From a bacterium (GTDB taxonomy: Bacteria; Pseudomonadota; Alphaproteobacteria; Caulobacterales; Hyphomonadaceae), in the NCBI GenBank assembly GCA_016125045.1, contig WGML01000005.1, positions 1 through 64,000 on the forward strand: DNA of 64,000 bases, given 5' to 3'. This document shows positions 21,511-25,198 of this stretch, piece after piece. The translations under genes and the position numbers were made by a program. The notes beneath the pieces were generated by a model. That model worked only from the letters and a program-made list of their open reading frames with translations, had not been told where the DNA came from and made no database searches. Each line of letters begins with the position of its first letter. Positions within the stretch are counted from its first letter, which is position 1.

Positions 21511-22053
21511 TCAGGACGGCAGGCTCGCCGTGGTCGGGGCCGCCGGGGCGGCGGGCGTCTCCGTCGGCAGAGGCGCCGCGCCGGCCATGCAGCAGCGCAC
21601 CTTCATCTCAAGCACGCGGGCATGGAAACGGCACTGCTGATCATCGATCGCGCGCATGATGGACGGCCCGCCCGCGCGATAGGTGAAGCGCGACTGCGTG
21701 CAGCTGACGAGCGTGTATCCCGGTGAGCAGGATCCGGTGTCCGTGCGCTGAAGGGTGCGGGTCTCGCAATAGATCTTGTCCTCACGCTCCGCGGCGGCCT
21801 TGGCCTCCATGCGGGCGGCGGTGGCCTCACGCAGCGCCTCGTCGGCGCGAACGCGGGCGTCGCTGAGGCTGAGATTGGTCTGTGCGAGAGCCTGCTTCTG
21901 CCCGTCGACATCGACCCACACCTTGCAGATCTCGCGGTCGGTGTTTCCGGCGTCGGCGCAGTATTCGGCGACGCTCATCTCCCGCGGCACACCCTGACAG
22001 GCGGACGCCAGAAGTGCGGCGCCGGCGGCGGCGATGAAAGCGAACCTGGTCAT
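21511..22053 (-). CDS. Hypothetical lipoprotein with coiled-coil region
   Basis: 180 residues. The N-terminus MTRFAFIAAAGAALLASAC carries a type II signal peptide with lipobox LASAC, so Cys19 should be lipidated. Residues about 55-95 are Ala/Glu/Arg-rich and predicted coiled coil (ALREATAARMEAKAAAERED). Six further cysteines (EYCADAG, REICKVW, YCETRTL, GSCSPGY, SCTQSRF, QQCRFH) and a CC pair suggest disulphides in the periplasm. The C-terminus is Pro/Ala-rich. I recognise no family. The gene stands alone, between a tandem repeat array and the polyamine leader. Confidence 0.72.
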   Translation of the reverse strand: MTRFAFIAAAGAALLASACQGVPREMSVAEYCADAGNTDREICKVWVDVDGQKQALAQTNLSLSDARVRADEALREATAARMEAKAAAEREDKIYCETRTLQRTDTGSCSPGYTLVSCTQSRFTYRAGGPSIMRAIDDQQCRFHARVLEMKVRCCMAGAAPLPTETPAAPAAPTTASLPS

Positions 22054-22288
22054 CGGTGACCTCCTGAATGGTTAACACATGAGCGTTCGATAGGCCCCGA
22101 TCGCGAGGTCGACAAGCAGCGGGATCAGCCCGCCTCACGCAAAACGCCATTCCTGACAAAGGTTTAACGCAGCGCCCCGTCAGGCCCGGGAAAAAATCTC
22201 CGTCCGGGCGAGTTGGCCGGGTATCACGCGGCGGAACGGCCCGCATCAACGCCGCCGGTTGCGTGTGCGTGGGCGCGCTCGCGGGAAT
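22054..22288. other. Intergenic region upstream of the decarboxylase leader
   Basis: This stretch separates the reverse-strand lipoprotein gene from the structured leader of the decarboxylase and must contain both promoters. GTTAACACATG at about 22071 and GGTTTAACG near 22162 are the AT-rich spots. I find no paired -35/-10 that convinces and no gene. Confidence 0.35.
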
Positions 22289-22642
22289 GTGCGATCAGAC
22301 GCTGGGAGACTTTCGTCCCCGAAGCCTTGAGGACGTCGCCGGAAACAATCGCCGAAACAGCGAGTTAGCGTCGCACCGGGACTGCAGCCCCAGACGAAAT
22401 CTTTTCTTTACACACCGTCCGTATGTCCTTATGTACATCGCGCCGGCGGACATCGGCTCGAGGCTCTGCGCTCTGATTCCACGTGGCGTCTGAACTTCCC
22501 GCGATCGATGAGGGTCCTCTAACAGGGAACTCCAATCGGGTAGGGGTTTGGATGACGTGTGCGGGTTGAGGGGCAGACTTAACGAGTCAAAGATCCGTAC
22601 TAACGCCGGATTGGGTTTAACGATTACAGGGGTTTGCGTGAC
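22289..22642 (+). promoter_or_regulatory. Structured 5' leader of the decarboxylase gene (speF-type candidate)
   Basis: A roughly 350-nt leader with long-range pairing. GTGCGA (22289-22294) pairs with TCGCAC (22371-22376), and CGCT (22300-22303) with AGCG (22367-22370). Inside, GGGA and TCCC close the loop of GGGAGACTTTCGTCCC. Lower down, ATCCG pairs with CGGAT around 22592-22611. A conserved RNA (speF leader, Rfam) is known upstream of ornithine decarboxylase genes of alphaproteobacteria, and this position fits. I could not compare with the Rfam model. A five-codon reading frame (22552-22569, MTCAG) with AGGGG before it may act as a leader peptide. Confidence 0.5.
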
Positions 22643-22645
22643 GTG
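22542..22645 (+). repeat. Direct repeat at the decarboxylase initiation region
   Basis: An 18-bp segment at 22542-22559 (AGGGGTTTGGATGACGTG) recurs with two changes at 22628-22645 (AGGGGTTTGCGTGACGTG), a distance of 86 bp. The second copy contains the ribosome site and start codon of the decarboxylase. The first copy could serve as a decoy initiation site or be involved in alternative pairing. Confidence 0.85.
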
Positions 22646-23863
22646 CTCACGTTCAATACGCCCCTGGACCTGGTCCGGGATAGGCTCCCAGAGAAGCCGG
22701 TCGCATGCGTGCGTCCGGAACGGGCAGCTCTAGCAACGGCTTGGTTCCAGGAAAACTTTCCGGGTGAGGTTCTTTACGCTGTAAAGGCGAACCCGTCGCC
22801 ATGGGTGCTCGACGCGATGTACGCGGCCGGCCAGCGCTGGTTTGACGTCGCGTCGGAAGCCGAGATCGAGCTGATCGCGTCCCGCTTCCCGGACGCGGTG
22901 ATGGCTTACATGCATCCGGTGAAACCCCGCGAGGCGATCCGGCGCGCCTATTTCGATCATGGCGTGCGGATCTTCGTGCTCGACTGCGAGGCCGAGCTGC
23001 GGAAAATCGTCGAGGCGACGAACGGCGCGGGCGATCTGACGCTCGTTGTGCGGCTCGCGGTGTCGAACGAGGACGCCGGCCTGCCGCTCAAGCACAAATT
23101 CGGCGCCTCGGCGGCCGAAGCGCCGTCGCTGCTTCAGGCGGTGCGTCGGCATGCCGACCAGCTTGGCGTGTCGTTCCATGTCGGGTCGCAGTGCATGAAC
23201 CCCGGCGCTTATCGCCGGGCGATGGCGGACGCGTCCCGCGTGATCCTGAAGGCGGCGGTCACGGTCGACATCGTTGATGTCGGCGGCGGCTTTCCGTCGC
23301 GCTATCCGGGAATGAACCCGCCCGATCTGTCGCGCTATGTCGACGTGATCGACGCGGCCTTCGAGGAAATGCCGGTTCTCGCGAACGCGGACCTGTGGTG
23401 CGAGCCCGGGCGCGCGCTCGTCGCGGAGTCGACCTCGATCCTTGTGCGTGTGGAGCTCGTGAAGGACGGCGCCGCCTACATCAATGACGGCGCCTACGGG
23501 AACCTTTTCGATGCGGCGCACTGCAAGTGGCAGTTTCCGCTGCGCGTGCATCGGGCCGACGGATCGACCGCGACCGAAACGCGGGCGTTCAAACTCTACG
23601 GTCCGACATGCGACTCGATCGACACGCTGGAGGGTCCGTTCGAGCTTCCGGCCGACCTCAGCGAGGGCGATTACATCGAGTTCGGCATGCTGGGCGCCTA
23701 TGGCGTCGCGATGCAGACACGGTTCAACGGCTTCGGCGACACCGATGACGTGATCGTCCGGGATGCGCCGTGGACCTCGATGTTTGGCGATGCAACGGCC
23801 CCGGCGCGGTCTGGCGAGGTCGTCGCCTTCCCCCGCCGCAAGCGGAGCCGCCGGGCCGGGTGA
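22643..23863 (+). CDS. Ornithine/lysine decarboxylase, fold type III PLP enzyme
   Basis: A 406-residue alanine-racemase-fold decarboxylase. The PLP lysine is K48 in LYAVKANPSP, the phosphate loop is VDVGGGFPSRYP, and the decarboxylase cysteine is C323 in LYGPTCDSIDTL. FHVGSQC and WCEPGRALVAES are also typical. It converts ornithine to putrescine, and related alphaproteobacterial enzymes also use lysine to make cadaverine. I chose GTG 22643, 10 bases after AGGGG; a TTG at 22634 in frame sits only one base from that site. The downstream DHS-like gene makes a two-step polyamine pathway likely. The extreme C-terminus is basic (PRRKRSRRAG). Confidence 0.92.
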   Translation: MLTFNTPLDLVRDRLPEKPVACVRPERAALATAWFQENFPGEVLYAVKANPSPWVLDAMYAAGQRWFDVASEAEIELIASRFPDAVMAYMHPVKPREAIRRAYFDHGVRIFVLDCEAELRKIVEATNGAGDLTLVVRLAVSNEDAGLPLKHKFGASAAEAPSLLQAVRRHADQLGVSFHVGSQCMNPGAYRRAMADASRVILKAAVTVDIVDVGGGFPSRYPGMNPPDLSRYVDVIDAAFEEMPVLANADLWCEPGRALVAESTSILVRVELVKDGAAYINDGAYGNLFDAAHCKWQFPLRVHRADGSTATETRAFKLYGPTCDSIDTLEGPFELPADLSEGDYIEFGMLGAYGVAMQTRFNGFGDTDDVIVRDAPWTSMFGDATAPARSGEVVAFPRRKRSRRAG

Positions 23864-24151: not shown

Positions 24152-25198
24152 ATGGCTGCTGCCTCAAACACCAAGGCGGAACTGCTCTCGAACACGATCG
24201 AGCATGTCGACATCACGTCCTATGATGCGCGGCCGATCATCGACTCGATGCGCAAGATGAGCTTCTCGTCCCGCGACACGGCGCGGGCGGCGGACATCCT
24301 CGACATGGCGATCGCGGACGACACGTGTTCGCCCTGGCTGATCCTCGCCGGCTCCACATCCGCGGGCGGCTGCATGCACGTCTATCGCGACATGGTGAAG
24401 TTCGGGATGATCGATGCGGTGGTGGCGACCGGCGCCTCCATCGTCGACATGGATTTCTTCGAGGCGCTCGGCTTCAAGCACTATCAGGCGGCGGGCTCGG
24501 TCGACGACAACCGGCTGCGCGAACTCTATATCGACCGGATCTACGACACCTATATCGACGAGGAAGAGCTTCAGGCCTGCGATCACACGATCCTCGAGAT
24601 CGCCGACAGCCTCGAACCCCGGCCCTATTCGTCGCGCGAGTTCATTCACGAGATGGGCAAGTGGCTGGCGAACGGCAACGCGAAGAAGCCGGCGAGCCTG
24701 ATCCAGACCGCCTATGAGGAGGGCGCGCCGATCTTCTGCCCTGCCTTCGTCGACTCCTCGGCGGGCTTCGGCCTCGTGAAGCACCAGAAGCAGCGCATGA
24801 AGGCCGGCAAGCCCTATATGTCGATCGATGCGGTGGCGGACTTCCGCGAACTGACCGACATCAAGATCGCCGCTGGAACCACGGGCCTGTTCATGGTGGG
24901 CGGCGGCGTGCCCAAGAACTTCGCGCAGGATACGGTGGTGTGCGCCGAGATTCTGGGCGTCGAGGCCGACATGCACAAATACGCGGTGCAGATCACGGTC
25001 GCCGACGTCCGCGACGGAGCCTGCTCGTCGTCGACGCTGAAAGAGGCGGCGAGCTGGGGAAAGGTCGAGACCACTTATGAACAAATGGTGTTCGCCGAAG
25101 CCACGACAGTCGTTCCCCTGATCGCCTCGGACACGTATCATAGGGGAAGCTGGCGGGCGCGCCGCAAGCGGCGCTGGTCGGAGCTGTTCTCCGGATAG
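24152..25198 (+). CDS. Deoxyhypusine synthase-like protein (probable homospermidine or spermidine synthase)
   Basis: 348 residues of the deoxyhypusine synthase fold. Conserved blocks are AGSTSAGGCMHVYRDMV, DAVVATGAS, KNFAQDTVVC and AASWGKVE, the last carrying the active-site lysine (K304), equivalent to K329 of human DHS. In eukaryotes and archaea DHS modifies eIF5A/aIF5A, absent from bacteria; plant homospermidine synthase derived from DHS. With a decarboxylase 288 bp upstream, transfer of an aminobutyl group from spermidine or putrescine to putrescine is the likely reaction. GGAG precedes the start by 11 bases. The C-terminus ends in a basic stretch (RARRKRRW). The product is not fixed. Confidence 0.88.
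   Translation: MAAASNTKAELLSNTIEHVDITSYDARPIIDSMRKMSFSSRDTARAADILDMAIADDTCSPWLILAGSTSAGGCMHVYRDMVKFGMIDAVVATGASIVDMDFFEALGFKHYQAAGSVDDNRLRELYIDRIYDTYIDEEELQACDHTILEIADSLEPRPYSSREFIHEMGKWLANGNAKKPASLIQTAYEEGAPIFCPAFVDSSAGFGLVKHQKQRMKAGKPYMSIDAVADFRELTDIKIAAGTTGLFMVGGGVPKNFAQDTVVCAEILGVEADMHKYAVQITVADVRDGACSSSTLKEAASWGKVETTYEQMVFAEATTVVPLIASDTYHRGSWRARRKRRWSELFSG

Follow-up and report, generated by a model that had tools for sequence, protein, structure and literature searches.

The speF RNA (RF00518) is a leader RNA of alphaproteobacterial ornithine decarboxylase (ODC) genes (Corbino et al. 2005, PMC1273637). The polyamine-pathway compounds tested on speF did not bind, and its ligand is unsettled (PMC1273637). 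A further motif, odc1 (uORF-25-1), was described in leaders of alphaproteobacterial ODC mRNAs (Brewer et al. 2021, PMC8632094). It has 272 members and comprises tandem starts with two bases between them, a ribosome site located in helix P1, a pseudoknot between the 5' end and a loop, and an 11-residue uORF; in reporter assays, its conserved bases affected the main start and the leader influenced the use of start codons (PMC8632094). A spermidine riboswitch class that derives from a SAM aptamer is polyamine-related as well (PMC10853860); the text of that paper contains neither the word alphaproteobacteria nor ornithine decarboxylase, and no SAM-type or other Rfam family matched the leader studied here or its relatives. 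Leader-based ODC control is also described for the enterobacterial speF leader (Salmonella; PMC6386406). In contrast to that leader, the short frame of the locus studied here was unsupported as a peptide device. Enterobacterial speF also differs from this locus in enzyme family and leader.

The window, a stretch of 64,000 nt from a member of the Hyphomonadaceae (GCA_016125045.1, contig WGML01000005.1), encodes an ODC-like pyridoxal-phosphate decarboxylase on the forward strand at 22643–23863. Its best PDB match was the lysine/ornithine decarboxylase 5gjm (E 3.8e-41), its best solved relatives were lysine/ornithine and ornithine decarboxylases, and it carries the Pfam domains Orn_Arg_deC_N and Orn_DAP_Arg_deC. 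By comparison with homologues, the start is GTG 22643; the open reading frame list had given TTG 22634. A deoxyhypusine-synthase-like gene follows 3' of odc on the same strand (24152–25198; NCBIfam 1,9-bis(guanidino)-5-aza-nonane synthase).

The sequence-only reading of this region had assigned the leader to the speF family. Both speF and the window leader precede a COG0019-type ODC in alphaproteobacteria, the relatives are Hyphomonadaceae, and the 5' end of speF, too, is close to a putative transcription start (PMC1273637). However, a scan with RF00518 gave no match in the window leader or in the source genome (82%-complete), and the conserved sequences differ. The test works, since RF00518 was found in 11 of 289 genomes of the class, nine of these above the cut-off. 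With Rfam 15, nothing was detected in 22040–22760 up to E = 5 and only a tRNA in the whole window, and the scan of 13 relatives yielded one sub-threshold viral match (24.1 bits versus a gathering score of 70). Thus, speF was refuted at the level of the covariance model, and an element of this family is extremely improbable here.

Promoter, core and arm of the leader

A sigma70-type promoter was read directly from the forward strand at 22407–22435, with TTTACA (22407–22412), a 17-nt spacer and TATGTA (22430–22435). Homologous leaders agreed, with a comparable promoter (score of at least 9/12) in 64 of 75, and in nearly all promoter-bearing leaders the −10 box ended 7–9 nt 5' of a conserved CCGGCGG. 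Based on this comparative spacing, the most likely transcription start is at about 22442, and the RNA would then open with the conserved core. The 5' end, GCCGGCGGAC (22442–22451, forward strand), falls within the covariance-model match given below, and its GGCGGA was invariant in CTAACGCC-type and compact leaders. CCGGCG (22443–22448) can pair with CGCCGG (22604–22609), which is the core helix P1.

Inspection of the sequence alone had suggested a structured leader at 22289–22642, held together by long-range complementary arms. The motifs are present (GTGCGA at 22289 and TCGCAC at 22371; CGCT at 22300 and AGCG at 22359 and 22367), but a folding role was not upheld. Six-base complementary pairs within 120 nt occurred at chance level in 22289–22642 (9 seen versus 9.7 ± 4.1 expected), and the whole stretch 22280–22645 gave a poorer fold than shuffled versions of it (z +1.63). 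Since the arms lie upstream of the promoter, they are probably absent from the mRNA. The suggestion of a structured, cis-acting ODC leader was borne out, but at 22442 to about 22678, i.e., reaching 12 codons into the ODC gene. The comparison with homologues indicates that it is a conserved regulatory leader of ODC.

Leaders of odc orthologues were gathered from Caulobacterales and beyond. The core GGCGGA(C)...CUAACGCC was present in about 100 Caulobacterales ODC leaders from most families of the order; in the compact type, GAUGCCGG takes the place of CUAACGCC at the 3' side. Many leaders continue 3' of the core with GG..UGGGUU, the Shine-Dalgarno sequence and two starts two bases apart. Elsewhere in the genomes, core or arm gave only scattered single chance matches, the core recurring at odc promoters only. 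Among the forms were compact leaders (L103–L120, about 95 nt including codons), short leaders that bear a small hairpin (L014 and its relatives) and leaders of one Caulobacterales family with a tandem double core (L122, L153, L156).

Upstream of odc in L122, L153, L156 and L161, the GGCGGAC...ACUAACGCC core occurs twice, as GGCGGACCTGGAAACAGCGTCCACTAACGCC and then GGCGGACCTGACAT..ATGTCCGACTAACGCC, which recalls tandem riboswitch aptamers. In genus g6 (L018, L019, L027 and relatives), a loop CUAACC is complementary to GGUUAG in the ribosome-site region, and this variant suggests a different sequestering pairing.

The window leader is of a long form, in which a nearly invariant arm of about 110 nt is inserted in the core. 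This form also occurred in relatives recorded as Hirschia, Hyphomonas or Hyphomonadaceae, among them Hirschia maritima (L068), and in one Hyphomonadaceae clade only. The arm (22454–22597, forward strand; fold z −1.92) is predicted to form one extended helix with some 40 pairs, topped by variable apical hairpins at about 22496–22541. The 16 distinct long leaders were near-identical over most of the insert, and their apical hairpins varied widely in sequence and length. When the arm was modelled as a single extended helix of 46 pairs in 10 long leaders, 99.6% of 454 cells were paired. One pair had changed on both sides (U-A to C-G), and several one-sided changes were consistent with pairing. Since most arm pairs never vary, conservation and foldability weigh more in the argument than covariation. 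This lineage-specific arm looks like a sensor domain.

A covariance model of the long form (R1) was built from these very leaders, including that of the window. It matched the window at 22442–22617 (150.7 bits, E 4.7e-33, with the window sequence being part of the model) and 22 of 105 genomes of the family, three of the 22 (genus g3) scoring weakly. In every stretch where the gene was sought and present, odc lay directly 3' of the match. Among the 289 genomes of the class, the window alone was matched. The arm word was absent from viral contigs, and a search of region 22050–22900 against plasmids gave no match. A match of the arm word in Corynebacterium (L063) had no core around it and looks like chance. 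Some metagenome contigs were broken inside the arm (L048/L057 with L004/L060; L066 and L071); the probable cause is that co-occurring species have identical arms.

The 3' strand of the arm at 22542–22561 resembles the true start region at 22629–22648 (GGGGUUUG..UGACGUG). The idea that this strand (GGGGUUUGGAUGACGUG) mimics the start region, with the arm 5' strand invading the start, found no energetic support: invasion duplexes had a mean of −16.5 kcal/mol in long-form and −16.8 kcal/mol in short-form leaders, so they were no stronger in the long form.

Predicted start-site hairpin and shared strand

In the fold of 22442–22690, CCGGAUUGGGUU paired with GACCUGGUCCGG (codons 8–12), and the Shine-Dalgarno sequence CAGGGG (22627–22632) paired with CCCCUG (22661–22666; codons 7–9). 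The resulting start-site-sequestering hairpin is predicted at 22606–22678 on the forward strand, with CAGGGG/CCCCUG and GCGUGA/UCACGU as inner helices. Folded alone, 22603–22682 had a z of −3.46, whereas the leader without coding sequence was unremarkable (z −1.2). The pairing was kept across 35 leaders, in 89% of cells for helix 1 and 88% for helix 2, and variable positions changed mostly consistently (UG/CG/UA, GU/AU). In one genus, a compensatory change (GC to AU) between the Shine-Dalgarno sequence and codon 7 turned CAGGGG/CCCCUG (L009) into CAGAGG/CCUCUG (L008, L010), preserving the pairing while the overlapping upstream peptide differs. The covariation score of the 3' hairpin as a whole was not above shuffles in the 35 leaders because coding constraint holds one side nearly fixed. 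In 36 aligned ODC genes, synonymous variation was lowest around codons 6–12 (ranks 1–4 of 203 windows along the gene); overlapping coding in two frames could be a partial cause of this conservation.

The 3' strand of the core, CTAACGCCGGATTGGGTTT (22600–22618, forward strand), is shared according to folding and leader comparison, pairing either with 22443–22448 or with codons 9–12. In the 3' half of the leader, GCCGGAUUGGGUU is predicted to pair with codons 9–12, and the alternatives for GCCGG are CCGGC(G) at the RNA 5' end or codons 11–12. The two constrained folds lay within 3 kcal/mol of each other in 42 of 56 leaders, with near-equal energies in short leaders. Near-balanced alternatives of this kind would be expected of a bistable switch. 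In long leaders, the hairpin was favoured over P1 by 6–9 kcal/mol, so switching there would depend on a contribution of the arm or of a ligand. All long leaders are able to form CCGGCG/CGCCGG; GGCG/CGCC is invariant, however, and covariation therefore has no bearing on P1. A large part of the sequestering hairpin might remain in place with P1 formed.

The window ODC has tandem start codons, GTG 22638 and GTG 22643, which are separated by AC (GUG-AC-GUG in the RNA). Tandem starts of the form NTG-NN-NTG were found in most leaders across Caulobacterales. From GTG 22638, a frame of 31 codons (22638–22733, forward strand; stop TAG 22731–22733) overlaps the ODC gene. Its counterpart has 2 codons in L008 and 11 in L010; L013, L025 and L030 share with L010 the end after 11 codons, which is the uORF length of odc1. 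Across the leaders compared, the position of the upstream start alone is conserved, and frame length and peptide are not.

Relation to odc1-type leaders

Like odc1, the window leader lies upstream of an alphaproteobacterial ODC, has starts two nucleotides apart and holds the ribosome site in a helix. The 5' end of odc1 pairs with an internal segment; in the window, CCGGCG/CGCCGG can form and is invariant in long leaders. However, the ribosome site of odc1 lies in the right shoulder of P1 and is paired with upstream sequence, whereas its predicted partner in the window is downstream coding sequence. The odc1 uORF has 11 codons and the window's upstream frame 31, the conserved sequences differ, and an arm of about 110 nt is inserted in the window leader.

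Leaders of the odc1 type were present in the set, namely L187 and L188 (tandem UUG starts, 11-codon uORF) and one Caulobacterales family; those identified were L021, L148, L149, L154, L157, L163, L164, L187 and L188. Their architecture was supported by covariation, with six two-sided pairs and a score reached by 0 of 500 shuffles, and the helix between 5' end and loop covaried strongly. Rfam 15 gave no match on four odc1-type or related leaders. An odc1-type model (R2) was made here from eight Caulobacterales leaders together with L187 and L188, and it is not the authors' own model. In the window, R2 reached 4.1 bits at best, which is no match, and none of the other core-type leaders tested was matched either. 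Membership of the window leader in odc1 was rejected on this mismatch, on the partner of the ribosome site and on the uORF length. As far as sequence comparison can tell, the window leader resembles odc1 in its position, its tandem starts and its topology, yet is not detectably a member. It may be a divergent odc1 relative, and since both leader types occur in one order, shared descent is plausible, albeit unproven.

In L021, L154, L164 and their relatives, the loop strand GAUUGGCGC shows complementarity to the coding bases GCGCUGGUC as well. This shared-strand layout is that of the window, with different sequence.

Candidate modes of translation control

We consider it likely, given the conservation and folding described above, that the leader is a cis-acting translation-control element of the ODC mRNA, in which a shared-strand switch affects start use. 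The RNA would begin at about 22442 with the conserved core, and the Shine-Dalgarno sequence and start region could be closed in a hairpin, the far strand of which is formed by codons 6–12 of the coding sequence. GCCGGAUUGGGUU would be common to two folds: paired with the RNA 5' end, it would form P1, and paired with codons 9–12, it would complete the sequestering hairpin. A polyamine-pathway metabolite or a protein would stabilise P1, and in the window it might act via the conserved arm. Stabilisation would shift the balance and change the use of GUG 22638 versus the ODC start GUG 22643, in either direction.

A translational sensing step, which the sequence-only reading had attached to a five-codon leader peptide, is probably present, but not via that peptide; the conserved feature is the start pair 22638/22643. 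The five-codon frame exists (most likely ATG ACG TGT GCG GGT TGA, 22552–22569, forward strand), lying inside the 3' strand of the arm, and its invariance in 16 of 16 distinct long leaders would suit a device in which the leader is controlled by ribosomes that translate this frame (MTCAG) or the 31-codon frame starting at GUG 22638. Such a device would also fit the order-wide retention of a start two bases 5' of the ODC start, a start that was used in the odc1 reporter (PMC8632094). However, the surroundings of the five-codon frame are equally invariant, the frame is buried in the stable arm helix, L004 keeps it but loses its GGGG ribosome site, and it is missing from leaders without the arm, including those of other genera. 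The length of the frame from 22638 differs among relatives as given above, and in L010 the peptide is altered while the RNA pairing stays. A translated five-codon peptide is not supported, and control by a leader peptide appears distinctly unlikely.

Protein-binding autoregulation, with the invariant GGCGGA...CUAACGCC and the arm as a protein site and not a small-molecule site, is somewhat unlikely in our view. The core is invariant in its letters, as sequence-specific protein sites are, and it is present at odc only, but no candidate protein emerged and such invariance is equally expected of an aptamer pocket. The hairpin is stable by itself and no ligand is known, as would be the case for a static structure without sensing, which would keep translation at a constant low rate or shield the 5' end of the mRNA; this is unlikely, as the near-invariant arm and the near-balanced folds exceed the needs of a static hairpin.

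Returning to the shared-strand switch, we tentatively propose, as a possibility, that the Caulobacterales odc leader is an undescribed class of metabolite- or protein-sensing RNA. Its GGCGGA...CUAACGCC core would compete with coding sequence for one strand, be present once, twice in tandem or, as in the window, with a sensor-like arm inserted, and control the choice between tandem starts for ODC. The leader type of the window is without an entry in Rfam 15, and no description was found in the literature searched; the genomes that carry it are therefore at present unannotated for it. RNA sensing of polyamines in bacteria has long been argued, speF having shown no ligand and one likewise lacking for odc1. 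Were the proposal true and the ligand a polyamine, the leader would represent a new class of polyamine riboswitch. The order-wide occurrence of this leader in compact, tandem and arm-bearing forms leads to testable predictions on how a strand shared with coding sequence may be used for switching.
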